A DNA stretch of 64,000 bases from NCBI RefSeq assembly GCF_030643805.1, contig NZ_CP094656.1, positions 2,976,001-3,040,000 of the forward strand, in the 5' to 3' direction. Positions 2,845 to 61,560 of the stretch are shown here, piece by piece. The notes beneath the pieces are model-generated. The model was given only the letters and a program-made list of their open reading frames with translations. It searched no databases and was not told the DNA's origin. This DNA is from Alkalihalobacillus sp. AL-G (lineage in GTDB: Bacteria > Bacillota > Bacilli > Bacillales > Fictibacillaceae). Every line of letters starts with the position of its first letter. Position 1 is the first letter of the stretch. Both the position numbers and the translations under genes were made by a program.

Positions 2845-3480
2845 TTAACGACAGAAACGGTCAATTGTATCTACAGCTTCATAACCACTTCCGTCAATGA
2901 TCATTGATAGAATTTTTTCGTAGTCTTTGAGCGGATATTTATGTTCTCTTGAATATGAAGTATAATCATAATCAATAAGTTCAATCCATAATCGATGTAA
3001 GAGAGAGTTATGTGCTGCTTCCATCACCTTGTGGAAGAAGTTCCAATCGGCTCTAGCAAAATCTTCAGGTGAGGCATTTTCTTTCATCGAGTAAACGGTT
3101 TTTTTTAACACTTTCAATTGCTCGTCTGTCCTTCTTAAAGAAGCTAACTGAACAGCATCTCTTTCTATTAGACAGCGTGTCTCTGTGAGCTCACTTCTTG
3201 CAGTCGCATCATTTAAAATAAAAGAGGCGAGAACTTGAACGAGTCTATGTTTTCTAGCTTCTTTTATATAGGTACCTTCACCTCGCCGCGTTTCAATCAA
3301 TCCGAGTAGCTCTATCGCTCTAAGTGCCTCTCGAACAGAAGATCTACCAACATTGAGTCGTTCTGATAGTTCACGCTCAGATGGCAATTTATCACCTGCT
3401 TGCAGTTGATCGTTTAAGATGATTGTTTTTAAACGTTCAAGGATTTCGACAAACACTTTTTCTCTTGGTTTGCTTGTCAT
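2845..3480 (-). CDS. GntR-family regulator, FadR/FCD subfamily, atypical C-terminus
   Basis: DNA-binding regulator of 211 residues. The winged-helix N-terminus is typical (GDKLPSERELSERLNVGRSSVREALRAIELLGLIETRRGEGTYI, given here as a span over residues about 29-72, key element SERELSERLNVGRSSVREA). The C-terminus is an FCD-type all-helical ligand domain. It keeps the D-x3-H element (DWNFFH), but the later histidines that normally complete the metal site are not visible, and the protein ends soon after in DRFCR. FCD proteins are usually about 20-30 residues longer. The gene sits between malic enzyme and accD, so it probably senses a metabolite of this operon and binds the palindrome at 4858-4876 (inference). 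The ATG at 3480 is preferred over an upstream GTG because of a GGTGG spaced eight bases before it. Confidence 0.85.
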   Translation of the reverse strand: MTSKPREKVFVEILERLKTIILNDQLQAGDKLPSERELSERLNVGRSSVREALRAIELLGLIETRRGEGTYIKEARKHRLVQVLASFILNDATARSELTETRCLIERDAVQLASLRRTDEQLKVLKKTVYSMKENASPEDFARADWNFFHKVMEAAHNSLLHRLWIELIDYDYTSYSREHKYPLKDYEKILSMIIDGSGYEAVDTIDRFCR

Positions 3481-3512
3481 TTTATCCACCACCTGCGCAG
3501 CTTGATGATCGA

Positions 3513-4751
3513 CTACTCCTCATCGATACTTGCAAGTCTGCGTGTTTTCTCAGAAATTTCTTCAGGATCGACTTTAATTCTTGCAACACCTGTTTCCATC
3601 GCGGCCTTTGCTACACCTGCTGCTACAGAAGGTGCTACCCTCGGATCGAAGGGTGCTGGTATAACGTAATCCTCAGATAATTCATATTTAGTAATAAGGT
3701 CTGCAATCGCATAGACTGCAGCTATTTTCATTTCTTCGTTTATATGGGTTGCTCTCGTATCAAGAGCTCCACGGAATATTCCAGGAAATGCAAGAACATT
3801 GTTTACTTGATTAGGAAAATCAGAGCGACCAGTTCCAATTACTCTAGCTCCAGCTTCTTTTGCTTGTTCCGGCATGATTTCCGGGACAGGGTTAGCCATT
3901 GCAAAAATGATGGGATCATCGTTCATGCTTCTGACCATATCCGGTGTAAGTGCTCCTTCTACAGAAACTCCGATGAACACATCCATTCCTTTAACAGCTT
4001 CTTCAAGCGAACCTTCAACCTGGTGTCGGTTTGTAAAATGAGCAACCTCTGCTTTTACCCGATTCATCCCATACGGACGCCCTTCATAAATAGCACCCTT
4101 AGAGTCACACATGATGATATCTTTTACACCAAATCGATTTAGCAGTTTGATGATCGCAATTCCAGCAGATCCCGCACCATTTACGACAACCTTAATGGAA
4201 GACATCGATTTTTGGGTTAGCTTCAGCGCGTTGACAAGACCGGCAACGGTTACAATTGCTGTGCCGTGCTGATCATCGTGGAAAATCGGGATGTTAGTTT
4301 CTTTCTTGAGCCGTTCTTCAATGACAAAACAGTTCGGTGCAGCAATATCTTCAAGGTTTATACCGCCAAATGTCGGCTCTAAAAGCTTCACAGTTTGGAC
4401 GATTTGATCCACATCAGTCGAATTCAGACAAATTGGAAAGGCATCGACTCCGGCAAAGCTTTTAAATAGAACTGCTTTCCCTTCCATGACCGGAAGTGCA
4501 GCCTCAGGGCCGATATTTCCAAGACCGAGCACAGCCGTTCCATCAGACACAACCGCGACGGTATTACCTTTCATCGTATATTCATAAACCTTGTTCTTAT
4601 CTTCGTATATTTCCTTGCAAGGCTCTGCGACTCCTGGAGAATATGCAAGGCTTAGATCCTTGGCGTTTCTTACTGGAACCTTTGATTTGGACTCCAGCTT
4701 ACCCTGATTTACTCTGTGCATATGAAGTGCTTCTTCTCGAGAAACAGACAT
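3513..4751 (-). CDS. ytsJ: Malic enzyme, NAD(P)-dependent (YtsJ type)
   Basis: Oxidative decarboxylation of malate to pyruvate with reduction of NAD(P). At 412 residues it matches the short bacterial form YtsJ, which prefers NADP in B. subtilis. Seen: the substrate-site Tyr and Lys regions ([11 protein letters not shown] near 35, [16 protein letters not shown] near 90), acidic metal ligands ([11 protein letters not shown] near 155), and a Rossmann motif GAGSAGIAI near 192. ATG at 4751 has a GGGAG. First gene of the leftward operon malic enzyme-gntR-accD-accA. Such a set could supply NADPH and pyruvate, and hence acetyl-CoA, for fatty acid synthesis (inference). Cofactor preference cannot be read with certainty. 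Confidence 0.93.
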
Positions 4752-4857: not shown

Positions 4858-4876
4858 AAGGTGGTCAGACCACCTT
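4858..4876. promoter_or_regulatory. Operator-like palindrome, FadR/GntR type
   Basis: AAGGTGGTCAGACCACCTT is a palindrome around one central base. Its core TGGTCAGACCA (4862-4872) agrees with the TGGT-n3-ACCA pattern known for FadR, PdhR and LldR type GntR regulators. It lies just downstream of the -10 of the malic-enzyme operon, centred near +15, a classic repressor position. The GntR/FCD protein encoded second in this operon is the obvious candidate binder. Confidence 0.75.
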
Positions 4877-4887
4877 TCGACTCATTC

Positions 4888-4915
4888 ATTATAACAAACC
4901 AAATCAACGTGTAAA
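4888..4915 (-). promoter_or_regulatory. Promoter of the ytsJ-gntR-accDA operon
   Basis: On the minus strand, TTTACA (4910-4915) and a perfect TATAAT (4888-4893) are separated by 16 bases. The start of transcription is expected near 4881, giving a leader of about 130 bases before ytsJ. Confidence 0.75.
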
Positions 4916-4926
4916 GAAATAATCTC

Positions 4927-7900
4927 TCATTTTAAAACAACATTATTCGATCCAAGCAATGATTCTAACTTGAAAATACAATCAGTGATGGTGTCAATAT
5001 TATACTGTTTCGATAATCTGAGCGTCTTCCCACTTTGTTCATAATATAATATGACGTCGGTGTTTCCTGGATACTGTAGAACAATTTTGTGGATGCTGTG
5101 TAGAACACCTTCACCATGTTTCGTCGTATCTATTCTTAAAAATAAGTTCGCCTTGCTGTTCTCTTCCTTTTGTTGCGGAAGCGATAACGTATGGAGATCG
5201 ACAGCTTTTTCGACGATCAGTTTTTGGGTATCTTTTGTTTCAACATTCCCTTCAAGTAACAGGAGCTTCCCCTCTTCAAAGCAATCTCGATATGCACGGT
5301 AGGTTTTTGGAAAAACAACACATTCGATTTCGCCAGTTTCGTCACTAATATTTACAAAAGACATCCATTCGCCTTTTTTTGTTTTGATTGTCTTGACTCT
5401 TGTTACGAGTGTCCCTATCCTTATTCCGCGCTGTTCACCTTCAATCTGGCCAATCAGACTGCGATTATACGCAATTAACACTTCCTTGAATGATTCTAGT
5501 GGATGTCCTGTTAAATAAAAACCAAGTGCTTCAAATTCAAATTGAAGCTTTTCTTTATCATGGAAGGGAGGGACTGTCTCATAGACTGACTTGGGATGGC
5601 CCTCATCATTAGGGAAAAGATCGAATTGACCTTCTTCATCAGACTTTTGGATTTTAGCAGCATATTCAAGCGCATCGTCGAGAGTTGCGAGCAACTGTGC
5701 ACGGTTTTTCGTGAATTCATCCATGCACCCAGCAAGAATAAGAGACTCGAGGCTGCGCTTATTTACTACTTTCAACGATACACGCTTGCACAAATCAAAT
5801 AGATCGCGGTATGCCCCCTTCTTCCTTCTCTCCTCAAGTAATGCTTCAATCGCTCGAACTCCTACATTCTTGATTACAAGTAAGCCGATACGAAGCCCCT
5901 TATTTTCCACTTTAAATCCTGATTGACTTTCGTTGATTGACGGCGGAAGTATGGATATTCCTTTCTGCCGGGCCTCATTCAAATAGGCTGCTGTCTTATT
6001 TTGATTCCCAATGGCACTGCTAAGCAGCGCAGCCATGAAGTGTAACGGATAATTGGACTTTAGGTAGGCTAGTTGGTAAGCAATGACGCTATACGCCACC
6101 GCATGCGAGCGGTTGAAACCATAATTAGCAAACCGTACGATTAGGTCATAGACATGATCGGCAGTCTCAGTCGTGTATCCATTCCTAGTCGCTCCTTGGA
6201 CAAAGTGCTCTCTCTCCTTGTGCAAGACCTCTGCCTTTTTCTTACCGACTGCTCTCCGTAGTAAATCTGCCTCACCGAGAGAAAACCCTGCCATTTTAGA
6301 CGCAATTTGGATGATCTGTTCCTGATAAACAATCACACCGTACGTTTTTTCTAAAATCGATTTGAGGTCTGGGTGTGGATAGCGAACCGTACGTTTTCCA
6401 TGTTTCCCTTCAATATAAGCAGGGATATTTTCCATTGGGCCTGGTCTGTACAATGCGTTTACCGCCACGATGTCTTCAAATTCAGACGGTTTCAATTTCA
6501 TAAGCACCTTTCGCATTCCATCCGACTCGAGCTGGAAAATCCCTGTCGTATCCCCTTCACTTAAATGCTTATACGTATTTTCATCGTTAAATGGAAGTGT
6601 ATTCAGGTTAAGCTTTTCCCCATGATCCTTTTCGATCAATGTGCAAATATCTTCTAACAATGATAGATTCCGAAGACCAAGAAAGTCCATTTTTAACAGC
6701 CCGATGTCCTCTAGCCCATCCATCGTGTATTGAGTCAATGCTAAATGTTCATTTCCTTCTTGTACTGGAACGACATCGGTCAACGGATCATCGCTGATTA
6801 CAATACCGGCCGCGTGGGTAGAAGCATGACGAGGTAAGCCTTCAATGGTTTTTGCAATCAACCACAGCTGAGTCGCTTCGTCAGATTGTTCAAGAACCCG
6901 TTTTAATGCTGGGGACTCCGCCAAAGCCTTTTCAAGAGTCATACCAGGTCTTGAAGGTAGATACTTTGCAACTCGGTCAATCACGCTTTGACTCAGGTTT
7001 AAGACCCGTCCGACATCTCGTATTGCAGCTCTTGCAGCTAGCGTGCCGAATGTAATGATTTGGGCGACATGATCCTTTCCATATTTCGAAGCAACGTATT
7101 GAATGACTTCATCTCTCTTTGTATCTGGAAAGTCGATATCAATATCAGGCATCGTTACTCGTTCAGGATTTAAAAATCGCTCAAAAAGAAGGTCATGTTC
7201 AATCGGATCAACCTGTGTAATTTGCAGTACATATGAGACGAGGGAACCTGCTGCAGATCCCCGTCCAGGTCCTGTCAAAATTCCCTTGTCTCTTGCATAC
7301 TTCATAAAGTCCCATACAATCAAGAAATAATCATTGAAACCCATACGATCAATGATTTCAAGTTCGTATGCAAGCCGGTTCTTCACCTCAGTCGATGGCT
7401 GGTCTCCGAACCGCTCTTTTACCGCTTTGTGGCATATTTTTTTTATATAGTCGGAGCTTGTACCATGATCAGGAATCGGGAATTTCGGCAAAATCAGGTT
7501 CCCAAACGACAAGTGGACATTGCACTTGTCAGCAATTTCTTTTGTGGTGTTTATCGCTTCAGGAAGATGTGAAAAGAGCCTCACCATTTCATCTGTGCTT
7601 TTAAAAAAATACTCTTTTGTTCTAGAACTTTCCTTTTCTAATTCACTTAACTTCTTACCGTGTTTAATAGCTTGCAACGCATCAAATGCTTGGGCATCTT
7701 CTTGATTTATGTAAAGGACATCATTCATTGCGACAAGTGGCAGGTCATTATTCTTTGAAAACTGAATGAGACTAAGATTAAGCTCCTTTTCTTTAGCTAG
7801 TCCATGGTCTTCTATCCCTAAATAAAAGCCTTTGTTAAATAACCCCGAAAGCCTGTCGGCTGCTTTCTCAGCACCTCTATTATCATGCTTGCTTAAAAAA

Positions 7901-8310
7901 CGTTGAACAACGCCGCCCGTACCTGCAGACACCGCGAGCAATCCATCTGTATGATTGTGCAAATCCTGAATTCCAATTGTTGTCGATGTATTCTTTCCAA
8001 TTAGTGAGCTGATTTTCACCAGATTATGATACCCATCATTGTTCCTAGCATACAGCAATAAGCGACTGGTCCCTTCTTTCCCACGTTCATCAGTAGATGG
8101 ATCCATATCGATTTCAAGCCCAAGAATCGGTTTAATCCCCTTCGATACACACGTTTGATAAAAGGGTAGGATTCCATACATAACGTTCCGATCCGTTAAC
8201 GCTAAAGAATCCATCCCTAATTGTGCTGCTCGATCAATCAATTTGTCGATTCTGCAGGCACTTTCAAGCAGACTGTATTCACTATGTATATGTAGATGTA
8301 CAAAGCTCAT
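4927..8310 (-). CDS. dnaE: DNA polymerase III subunit alpha, DnaE type
   Basis: Replicative DNA polymerase of the DnaE1/DnaE family, in Bacillus the enzyme that extends RNA primers before handing over to PolC. Length 1127 is close to B. subtilis DnaE. In order: PHP domain (HLHIHSEYSLLESA at the N-terminus, LTDRN near 40), polymerase core with the catalytic acidic motif PDIDIDFPD near 390 and GPGRGSAAGS near 350, fingers region with YQEQ and RRAVGKKK, helix-hairpin-helix, and a C-terminal OB fold (IGTLVTRVKTIKTKKGEWM). The start at 8310 gives the expected MSFVHLHIHSEYS. The malic-enzyme promoter begins immediately after its stop, and I see no clear dnaE terminator. Confidence 0.98.
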   Translation of the reverse strand: MSFVHLHIHSEYSLLESACRIDKLIDRAAQLGMDSLALTDRNVMYGILPFYQTCVSKGIKPILGLEIDMDPSTDERGKEGTSRLLLYARNNDGYHNLVKISSLIGKNTSTTIGIQDLHNHTDGLLAVSAGTGGVVQRFLSKHDNRGAEKAADRLSGLFNKGFYLGIEDHGLAKEKELNLSLIQFSKNNDLPLVAMNDVLYINQEDAQAFDALQAIKHGKKLSELEKESSRTKEYFFKSTDEMVRLFSHLPEAINTTKEIADKCNVHLSFGNLILPKFPIPDHGTSSDYIKKICHKAVKERFGDQPSTEVKNRLAYELEIIDRMGFNDYFLIVWDFMKYARDKGILTGPGRGSAAGSLVSYVLQITQVDPIEHDLLFERFLNPERVTMPDIDIDFPDTKRDEVIQYVASKYGKDHVAQIITFGTLAARAAIRDVGRVLNLSQSVIDRVAKYLPSRPGMTLEKALAESPALKRVLEQSDEATQLWLIAKTIEGLPRHASTHAAGIVISDDPLTDVVPVQEGNEHLALTQYTMDGLEDIGLLKMDFLGLRNLSLLEDICTLIEKDHGEKLNLNTLPFNDENTYKHLSEGDTTGIFQLESDGMRKVLMKLKPSEFEDIVAVNALYRPGPMENIPAYIEGKHGKRTVRYPHPDLKSILEKTYGVIVYQEQIIQIASKMAGFSLGEADLLRRAVGKKKAEVLHKEREHFVQGATRNGYTTETADHVYDLIVRFANYGFNRSHAVAYSVIAYQLAYLKSNYPLHFMAALLSSAIGNQNKTAAYLNEARQKGISILPPSINESQSGFKVENKGLRIGLLVIKNVGVRAIEALLEERRKKGAYRDLFDLCKRVSLKVVNKRSLESLILAGCMDEFTKNRAQLLATLDDALEYAAKIQKSDEEGQFDLFPNDEGHPKSVYETVPPFHDKEKLQFEFEALGFYLTGHPLESFKEVLIAYNRSLIGQIEGEQRGIRIGTLVTRVKTIKTKKGEWMSFVNISDETGEIECVVFPKTYRAYRDCFEEGKLLLLEGNVETKDTQKLIVEKAVDLHTLSLPQQKEENSKANLFLRIDTTKHGEGVLHSIHKIVLQYPGNTDVILYYEQSGKTLRLSKQYNIDTITDCIFKLESLLGSNNVVLK

Positions 8311-59136: not shown

Positions 59137-61560
59137 CTATTGCTTCACGTCATCACCTGTTTGATTATAATATTCCTGTTTAGTCACTAGGACATTCCGA
59201 GGCTTACTTCCCATTGCTTCTGATACAAGTCCTTTCGCCTCCATCATATCGATTAATCGAGCGGCTCGATTAAAACCGACGCGAAACCTTCTTTGCAGCG
59301 CTGAAGAAGATGCTGTCCCGTGCTCTAATACGAACTCGAACGCTTCATCGAACAGTTCATCATCCTGTTCAAATGAACGGCTTGATTGAACGAGTTCTTC
59401 CTTTTCAAACAAATAGGACGTGGTTTTCTGGCGTTTCACATGCTCTGTAATCCGCTCGATCTCATCATCTGATACGAAGTTCCCTTGTATACGAACCGGC
59501 TTTGAGACACCATTACCGAGAAACAACATATCCCCACGTCCTAACAGCTTCTCAGCCCCGCTCATATCAATAATTGTTCTTGAGTCAACCTGTGAGGATA
59601 CCGCAAAGGCAACACGAGTTGGAATGTTCGCTTTGATGAGACCGGTGATAACATCTACAGAAGGTCGTTGAGTTGCCAACAGCAAATGGATTCCACAAGC
59701 TCGTGCCTTTTGAGCAATACGACAAATCGCATCCTCGACATCCTGTGGTGATACCATCATCAGGTCAGCGAGCTCATCAATCACGACAACAATGTAAGGC
59801 AATTTTTGATCAGGTGTCCCTTTTCCTAAGACTAATTTATTGTAGCGCTCCATGTCACGGACTCCAGTACGGGCAAACAGCTCATAGCGACGTTCCATTT
59901 CCTCGACAGCCCACTTCAAGCCCATTGTTGCTTCTTTTGCATCGGTAATTACCGGTGTTACGAGGTGCGGCAAATGGTTATATGGGGCAAGCTCTACCAT
60001 TTTCGGATCAATTAAGAGCAGGCGAACTTCATCTGGATTAGCCTTGAATAGAATACTGATGAGCAAGGAATTGATACAGACACTCTTTCCTGATCCAGTT
60101 GCCCCAGCTATCAAACCATGCGGCATTTTTTGCAGATCTGTAACAACTGGCTTCCCCGATATGTCAAGACCAAGTGCAACAGATAATGTCGATCGACTCT
60201 CTTTAAAAATCGGATCCGTAACGATTTCTCGAATTGTAACAGGTTTACTTACTTTGTTTGGAACCTCGATACCTATCGCATTCCGTCCTGGGATAGGAGC
60301 TTCCATTCGGATGTCCTTTGCTGCAAGACTGAGCTTAATATCATCAGCTAGATTCGTAATTTTGTTCACCTTTACCCCAGGGGCAGGTTGTACCTCAATC
60401 CGGGTTACTGAAGGTCCTTTTGTTGCACCAATGACATGTGCCTTTACATTAAAGTTGTTCAATGTGGATTGTAATAATTCCTTTTGCTCGCATAGCCATA
60501 GCTCATCATTTTCCACTTGAACTGGCTGTGAATCCAGCAGATTTACTGTCGGAAATCGATAGCCACCATTTACATCCTTATGAGGTGTTTCAGGCTTTGA
60601 TGTTCCTATCTCCTTCTTAGGTGTTTCAGTCTTTTTTGTCTCTGCTGAAGGTCTGCGTTGGCGGTCTTTTTGAAGCATCATTACATTAAACGGAATCCTG
60701 GTCTTTCCATTATCCTTTTTCTCTCGCAGTTCTTTGTATCTCCGTACCCGTTGGATTGGTGATTCCTTTTTTTCAGGCTGAACCGGTTGGTCTTCCTCAT
60801 GACAGTCTATCGATTTATTTTCCTCTACGAGCGTGGCAGCAGTTTCTTCAGAAAACGCAAGGTCAACTTCCTCGTATAATGGATCAAAGTGTTCTTCACA
60901 CTCATCCTGTTCTCGGTAATTCAACGTTTTCATATTTATTTCATTTGATTGTATACCGTCAATTTCGGCTTGCTCTGAATTAACTGCATCGACCTTTCCA
61001 TTTTCGGATTCATCAAATTGATTGTCCGCATGGCCCTCCATCCGAACCTGTTTGTGGGCATCAGATATGAGCGGAAACGGTTCCGGACTACTTTCGATAC
61101 CCATGTTGTCTTGTTCTTCAACAACAAGTACTTCTTCCTCTACTTCCCTATTCAAAACAGGAGGGAAAATTTCCGGGCGTTTCCCGTAACCGTATATCGG
61201 TGAGGGGATTTCACTCGGTTTAAAATTTATACCGGTAAATTTCTCTCGTGTTGTTTCTTTTCGAGTTTTTTGCTTAGGTGTTTTTTTGGTAGTACTATCC
61301 TGTTTTTGTTTTCTCACGGTTCGACCGTATGTATGTTTCTGTGTCTGTTTCTCATCAGGAATTAAAGGAAAGCGAAAATTCCCTTCCTTTGGATATTGAT
61401 GTACAAATTTTGGTTTGATAGAACGGTTGCTGTCTTCAATCCGACCTACAGGATTGGAGCTAGGGCGTGATTGAGTTTCCCCGTCCGGATTACCGTCACC
61501 CAATTCGTCATGATCACTTTCTAGTAATAGGTCTTTCATTTTTCTTAGCCAATTTGACAT
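59137..61560 (-). CDS. sftA: DNA translocase SftA
   Basis: FtsK/SpoIIIE-family ATPase that clears DNA from the closing division septum. 807 residues. Unlike SpoIIIE it has no membrane helices; the N-terminal 330 residues are charged and low in complexity. The motor has the alpha region with VSKPVTIREIVTD, Walker A GATGSGKSVCINS near 485, Walker B VVVIDELADLM near 595, and a C-terminal gamma winged helix (SSALQRRFRVGFNRAARLID). This is the YtpS/SftA type, consistent with its place. AAAGGTGA is the likely ribosome binding site. Confidence 0.96.
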   Translation of the reverse strand: MSNWLRKMKDLLLESDHDELGDGNPDGETQSRPSSNPVGRIEDSNRSIKPKFVHQYPKEGNFRFPLIPDEKQTQKHTYGRTVRKQKQDSTTKKTPKQKTRKETTREKFTGINFKPSEIPSPIYGYGKRPEIFPPVLNREVEEEVLVVEEQDNMGIESSPEPFPLISDAHKQVRMEGHADNQFDESENGKVDAVNSEQAEIDGIQSNEINMKTLNYREQDECEEHFDPLYEEVDLAFSEETAATLVEENKSIDCHEEDQPVQPEKKESPIQRVRRYKELREKKDNGKTRIPFNVMMLQKDRQRRPSAETKKTETPKKEIGTSKPETPHKDVNGGYRFPTVNLLDSQPVQVENDELWLCEQKELLQSTLNNFNVKAHVIGATKGPSVTRIEVQPAPGVKVNKITNLADDIKLSLAAKDIRMEAPIPGRNAIGIEVPNKVSKPVTIREIVTDPIFKESRSTLSVALGLDISGKPVVTDLQKMPHGLIAGATGSGKSVCINSLLISILFKANPDEVRLLLIDPKMVELAPYNHLPHLVTPVITDAKEATMGLKWAVEEMERRYELFARTGVRDMERYNKLVLGKGTPDQKLPYIVVVIDELADLMMVSPQDVEDAICRIAQKARACGIHLLLATQRPSVDVITGLIKANIPTRVAFAVSSQVDSRTIIDMSGAEKLLGRGDMLFLGNGVSKPVRIQGNFVSDDEIERITEHVKRQKTTSYLFEKEELVQSSRSFEQDDELFDEAFEFVLEHGTASSSALQRRFRVGFNRAARLIDMMEAKGLVSEAMGSKPRNVLVTKQEYYNQTGDDVKQ

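Follow-up and report, generated by a model that had tools for sequence, protein, structure and literature searches.

A putative autoregulatory operator shared by the GntR/FCD regulator gene and accDA in Alkalihalobacillus sp. AL-G and other members of class Bacilli

In the 64,000-nucleotide window of Alkalihalobacillus sp. AL-G DNA analysed here (NZ_CP094656.1, positions 2,976,001 to 3,040,000; all coordinates below are counted within this window), a perfect 19-bp palindrome, AAGGTGGTCAGACCACCTT (4858-4876, minus strand, centre 4867), is located a short way downstream of the TTTACA/TATAAT promoter in front of mae-gntR-accD-accA(-pfkA). Judged from sequence comparison, the palindrome is the predicted operator of the GntR/FadR-subfamily protein encoded in the same operon, a reading to which we assign a probability of about 0.85, and a dimer of this protein would repress its own gene, accDA and mae. 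The dimer most likely binds TGGTCWGACCA just past the transcription start, and once bound it would block initiation or promoter escape. In this way gntR, accDA and, where present, mae would be held down, giving homeostatic control, by negative feedback, of the carboxyltransferase half of acetyl-CoA carboxylase. We infer binding by the window GntR, repression rather than activation and the size of the effect from sequence.

The promoter (4888-4915, minus strand) was recognised by its match to the consensus and its conservation in the genus. It is composed of TTTACA (4915-4910), 16 nt of spacer and TATAAT (4893-4888) preceded by TG, matches the consensus hexamers at 11 of 12 positions, and is kept in all eight genus promoters, the window's included. 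With transcription presumably starting at about 4881, some 7 nt past the -10, the centre of the palindrome falls at about +15, which agrees with the initial annotation. The conserved part of the operator is its core, TGGTCWGACCA (4862-4872). The same annotation described near-inverted blocks flanking the site; TATGAATGA (4820) and TCATTCATT (4882, overlapping the -10) are indeed present, but they are not conserved, as the former was found on either strand in two and the latter in none of seven genus relatives' promoter stretches, in a comparison where the stretches of L012 and L013 end short of the operator.

All genes of the operon lie on the minus strand and, pfkA excepted, were named from Pfam and NCBIfam matches. 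Clarification of the gene order placed mae, a YtsJ-like malic enzyme gene and an optional member of the cluster (3513-4751), first after the promoter, and dnaE (4927-8310, minus strand), which is outside the circuit, upstream. The regulator gene gntR (2845-3480) follows mae, and its start is more likely the ATG at 3480 than the GTG at 3492, the ribosome-binding site having been read by eye. Next are accD (1933-2820, exact start uncertain) and accA (956-1933), which encode the carboxyltransferase beta and alpha subunits and score above the cut-offs of TIGR00515 and TIGR00513, respectively. The frame at 2-790, which we take to be the start of pfkA by recognition alone, continues past the window edge and is a possible target of read-through transcription from mae-gntR-accD-accA. 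Within the operon four promoters and two terminators were found versus 8.0 and 2.8 in shuffles, no excess of either.

The window holds two odd palindromes with at least nine pairs, against a mean of 0.53 and a maximum of 2 in 30 first-order Markov simulations of the window, so that the palindrome alone is only mildly unusual and constitutes weak evidence. The other such palindrome is TAATCGAGCGGCTCGATTA, at 59254-59272 within an ftsK-like frame. The sequence TGGTNNNACCA occurs four times in the window versus 0.70 expected. The exact core occurs once in the whole 4.16-Mb genome, and the 19-mer with up to three mismatches is found at four genomic places, including the operator, versus three for the reversed control. 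The decisive support for the candidate site is phylogenetic.

Footprinting had been set beforehand as the test of the proposed operator, and it was found that the site is kept in relatives that carry gntR and is missing where the gene order lacks it. The samples were composed of the window's family (34 genomes, 33 of which have a gntR match at E 1e-30 or better), 150 genomes from the order, named genomes (41 loci) and further orders of class Bacilli. An exact core was located upstream in 225 of 229 testable gntR-cluster loci, some named and unnamed ones being the same organism and hence not all independent, and the remaining four have a core with one mismatch. Where gntR lies directly behind mae, the exact core TGGTCNGACCA was present in the upstream stretch of 178 of 184 loci (175 of 181, plus L142, L195 and L210, in which gntR overlaps the end of mae). 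Among the six misses, L012 and L013 carry the core further upstream (L223, L224), L068, L135 and L173 each have a form with one mismatch shortly after a -10-like sequence, and the sequence of L038 begins too near mae, with 86 nt upstream, to be judged. Another five loci of the order lack a normal mae (L045, L087, L151, L221 and L222), and in each of them the exact core precedes gntR. In other orders it was found in every one of the 23 testable first-set loci, in 10 of the 11 second-set loci linked to mae (the exception, L285, differs at one position) and in all seven mae-less loci.

Loci with mae and accD and lacking gntR gave the opposite picture, as the core was found within one mismatch in none of 21 genomes (20 loci, with L216 left out, plus G019 from the window's own family). 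Both results speak for the earlier proposal, made from sequence, that the site would be the operator of the operon's own GntR/FCD protein and would mediate autoregulation. On a FastTree phylogeny of mae from 166 genomes, with named loci L038-L077 omitted as partly duplicate contigs, gntR and the site agree in 166 of 166 genomes (145 with gntR), each having undergone at least 12 changes; in this scoring L135 and L173 were counted as present from the one-mismatch form and L012 and L013 from the site further upstream. In independent pairs on supported branches, gntR and the site go together in seven of seven (p 0.016). Two FCD paralogues situated away from accD, used as controls (L296, L297), have no such site. 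Two-mismatch best matches located 44-72 nt before mae were found in four of the 21 gntR-less loci, while about two of 21 are expected from shuffles (93 of 1050 draws reached two or fewer mismatches). Sequences of this kind, seen at the operator's usual place 44-72 nt before mae in L136, L179, L196, L217 and L227, are suggestive only, and not significantly so versus shuffles, of operator remnants left after regulator loss; in G019 such a sequence lies about 69 nt before mae, although there are four in its 4.2-kb locus. The counts exclude L078 (Bosea, E 1e-5), L253, L254 and L262 (34-44 nt of upstream sequence), L216 (a second mae copy with no accD found), G085 (contamination 7, five mae matches) and G045, G070 and G109 (mae place not located), and L225 (G012), which carries the core, entered none of them.

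In 168 distinct promoters the motif reads G(92%) TGGTC-W-GACCA C(72%) Y(98%), where the ten core positions were fixed by selection of the set and the A/T centre and flanking bases were not; beyond one or two positions the flanks differ between promoters. The interval from the end of the -10 to the core is 11-19 bp in 147 of the 168 promoters, whereas random placement gives a mean of 4.8 and a maximum of 13 (1000 draws), and the distance from the site to the start codon ranges widely, from 33 to 358. Since the former distance is kept and the latter is not, the site appears to be tied to the promoter, which favours a block of transcription at the DNA level. TGGTC-W-GACCA fits the FadR-subfamily consensus NyGTM-N0-1-KACNy at the GTM and KAC positions, being a palindrome with GT..AC half-sites around a centre of 0-1 nt, and it is located in the promoter of the regulator's own operon, as in an autoregulated local repressor. 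The core also agrees with the operator consensus of the subfamily (PMC4494728) and recurs in the predicted operator of a mycobacterial GntR protein (PMC2018728).

The same anatomy bears on two other explanations of the palindrome. A hairpin formed in the RNA 5' leader, with a role in stability or attenuation, could be imagined, as the window leader can fold into a stem of 8 bp closed by a loop of 3 nt, with a folding energy of -11.2 kcal/mol over 30 nt (z -2.94). However, the conserved core includes the C and G next to the centre, where the loop would be, while the flanks vary, the spacing is kept relative to the -10 and not to the start codon, an Rfam search to E 1 returned no match, and presence of the site tracks gntR, making a hairpin highly improbable. 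Activation by a regulator bound at the same operator is also unlikely, if less so. An operator downstream of the -10 is in the usual position for a repressor, and here the distance is tightly kept. A precedent for activation does exist, since CitO of Enterococcus faecalis is described as an FCD-family activator in PMC4746285. We retain repression at the DNA level as the preferred reading.

As for the genes that the site accompanies, the 12 mae-less loci all have it before gntR-accD, and in ten of them no more than 120 nt separate it from gntR. The two exceptions are L280, where it lies 325 nt upstream, and L222, where it lies 773 nt upstream with another frame between. A second site 28-88 nt before accD was found in 9 of 184 loci, five exact and four with one mismatch. 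For the 13-mer GTGGTCAGACCAC, 90 places were counted across 87 of the 150 order genomes (2 for the control), of which 86 are mae promoters, two lie between gntR and accD (G079, G172), one is inside accD (G099) and one is inside a reading frame (G160). These placements, together with the sites before gntR-accD in loci without mae, point to accDA as the constant partner, and the conserved unit, as predicted from gene neighbourhoods, is operator-gntR-accDA with mae as an optional member. It had been suggested that malonyl-CoA synthesis and malate-to-pyruvate flux are placed under one repressor; the link to accDA is borne out, but mae does not prove essential to the arrangement.

The data give no grounds for a regulon extending beyond the operon. 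The exact core has 59 places in the 34 family genomes versus 58 for the reversed-pattern control; 32 of the 59 are mae promoters, one per genome except in G019 and G022, so that the 27 non-mae places represent no excess. Inspection of 23 of these 27 located 16 inside reading frames, six in the L228/L229 cluster and one in an intergenic region, the places outside this inspection being G020:C1, G021:C18, G022:C30 and G033:C4. The intergenic core (L244, site 1548; genus relative G031) is 87 nt before a long PAS-like frame. L228 (1854, 2653, 7444) and L229 (1982, 2785, 7479), from two family genomes, each have three copies of TGGTCWGACCA with A/T-rich flanks, in front of genes for a further FCD-type GntR protein and for RraA-like and LarA-like proteins, and genes for a second GntR protein and an IlvD-like protein are close by; these names were given by recognition and are our presumption. 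By its putative gene content this is a separate catabolic cluster using the same operator core. Use of one core by a paralogous GntR cluster is a point against sole assignment of the site, as the core alone does not identify the regulator that binds it, and the four gntR-bearing loci with a one-mismatch site only are another.

The window regulator has an N-terminal GntR winged helix-turn-helix (PF00392, 63.9 bits, cut-off 27) and a C-terminal all-helical FCD domain (PF07729, 54.7 bits, cut-off 24.3). Its predicted model is a confident one, with a pLDDT of 86.6 and a pTM of 0.72, and the nearest solved folds are FadR/FCD structures, the first being 6az6 (Z 16.7, rmsd 4.9 over 199 residues). Among 25 of the 27 NCBIfam families listed, no cut-off was reached by the protein. 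It scored 38.9 bits against a cut-off of 249.2 for the E. coli FadR equivalog TIGR02812, and it fell below the cut-offs of the named families LldR (99.4 of 311 bits), PdhR (91.4 of 330), GlcC, UxuR and NanR, the best being NF003011 (NanR) with 103.6 against 260.

The metal-binding histidines of the FCD structure 2DI3 are His148, His196 and His218, according to PMC4746285. In the window protein H148 aligns with F153, and positions 191 and 213 of the family alignment are Y191 and F213, so that all three coordinating histidines are absent. Of the 181 orthologues in the order set, 17 have the complete triad; in other orders it was found in 25 of 26 loci of the first set (four families) and in 7 of 18 accD-cluster loci of the second, that is, in 7 of 11 mae-linked loci and in none of seven mae-less loci of family f49. 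Mean identity over sampled pairs in the order set is 0.70 for the helix-turn-helix and 0.22 for the FCD effector domain. At matched mae identity (bin 0.8), effector domains without the triad share 0.20 (3699 pairs) versus 0.52 for those with it (62 pairs), while the helix-turn-helix shares 0.71 versus 0.75. After pairwise realignment the effector values are 0.26 (120 pairs) and 0.53 (62 pairs); the triad-less 0.26 is not above the 0.27 of shuffled partners, although the alignment score is (67.9 vs 15.8). Divergence of the sensor beside a kept helix-turn-helix and operator is read here as relaxed constraint on sensing, rapid adaptation to new ligands being the alternative.

That alternative can be stated as the same operator and regulator with a true metabolite sensor, in which a new ligand (acyl-CoA, malonyl-CoA, malate or pyruvate) has replaced the metal-bound carboxylate, and we give it somewhat under even odds. 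It is consistent with the retained FCD fold, with the above-shuffle global alignment scores of the divergent domains, with the few conserved positions (N162, L164, W169) and with the binding of acyl-CoA by E. coli FadR, a protein of related fold, per the titles of its structures. On the other side are the F153, Y191 and F213 substitutions and the contrast in identity between sensor and helix-turn-helix in triad-less proteins, which looks like relaxed constraint. Thus, the "metabolite-sensing" quality ascribed to the repressor by the initial annotation is not supported for the window protein, with its lost metal histidines and fast-diverging sensor domain; metabolite sensing by it appears doubtful from its sequence, and a ligand-blind or re-tooled autorepressor as likely. 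Because the canonical histidines are lost, the proposed repression loop would in the window organism be ligand-independent or answer a non-canonical ligand. Orthologues that retain the histidines would, judging from other FCD proteins, probably bind a small carboxylate.

A single change suffices for the triad on the order-only mae tree, but with other orders added the minimum rises to four changes (accD tree) or five (mae plus accD tree), with basal branch support of 60-82. A single loss of the metal site was therefore rejected, and the sequences argue that the site was lost or replaced more than once. That the ancestor had the triad is suggested by its retention in other orders, the mae-less f49 loci excepted. 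A tentative history, which we hold to be rather less probable than its opposite, is that an ancient accDA homeostat of class Bacilli is now run by a regulator that no longer senses. The sensor would have drifted freely after metal-site loss while the helix-turn-helix and 11-bp operator stayed fixed, and the loop would have been retained simply to set acetyl-CoA carboxylase dosage by negative autoregulation and not to sense a metabolite.

FapR and FadR(YsiA) of the related bacterium B. subtilis control lipid metabolism, and they belong to other protein families and use other operators than the GntR/FCD system. To our knowledge B. subtilis is without this gntR, and we know of no explanation by FapR of carboxyltransferase gene control in Bacilli. 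B. subtilis ytsJ is the same gene as mae and also lies behind dnaE; the passages on it in PMC10433868 describe three promoters and targeting by the sRNA RoxS, and mention no GntR protein as a regulator of the gene. The closest match in operator is E. coli LldR, with a 17-bp box, AAnTGGTCnGACCAnTT (PMC10272880). LldR shares the core TGGTCnGACCA, the GntR helix-turn-helix with FCD domain and local operon control, but as described there it responds to lactate, controls lactate genes and has two boxes per target, whereas the window system usually has one site, is linked to accDA and lacks the metal histidines. The E. coli FadR site, given as aaCTGGTCnGACC(T/A)Gtt in PMC9329746, has nearly the same core, and FadR shares lipid-related control and a helix-turn-helix of one subfamily, but it is an acyl-CoA-responsive global regulator with a C-terminal domain of another family. 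C. glutamicum CGL2915/LldR (2DI3), TM0439, DgoR and CitO are metal-binding FCD regulators that have the FCD fold in common with the window protein (versus 2di3, Z 13.0, rmsd 5.1 over 199 residues). Unlike 2DI3-type regulators, which bind metal, the window protein has F/Y/F at the three histidines, which orthologues of other orders mostly keep.

In a search of part of the open-access literature, no title or abstract opening was found to describe a mae-gntR-accDA circuit. What is new here is the contrast, within the order set, between a helix-turn-helix with about 70% identity and an FCD sensor with a mean of 22%, together with the loss of the canonical metal histidines in the window protein. 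Acetyl-CoA carboxylase commits carbon to membrane lipid, and a dedicated regulator with a usually single operator is kept beside accDA in several orders of Bacilli. A fixed operator with a decaying sensor offers a natural series, from histidines intact through partly lost and fully lost to gntR gone, which lets one ask when a sensor becomes a plain autorepressor. In three family genomes (L231, L236, L237) the exact core also occurs inside ccpA-like frames about 45 kb from mae, which is probably a coding coincidence, and the ccpA-like frame of the window contains TGGTAAAACCA (50999).
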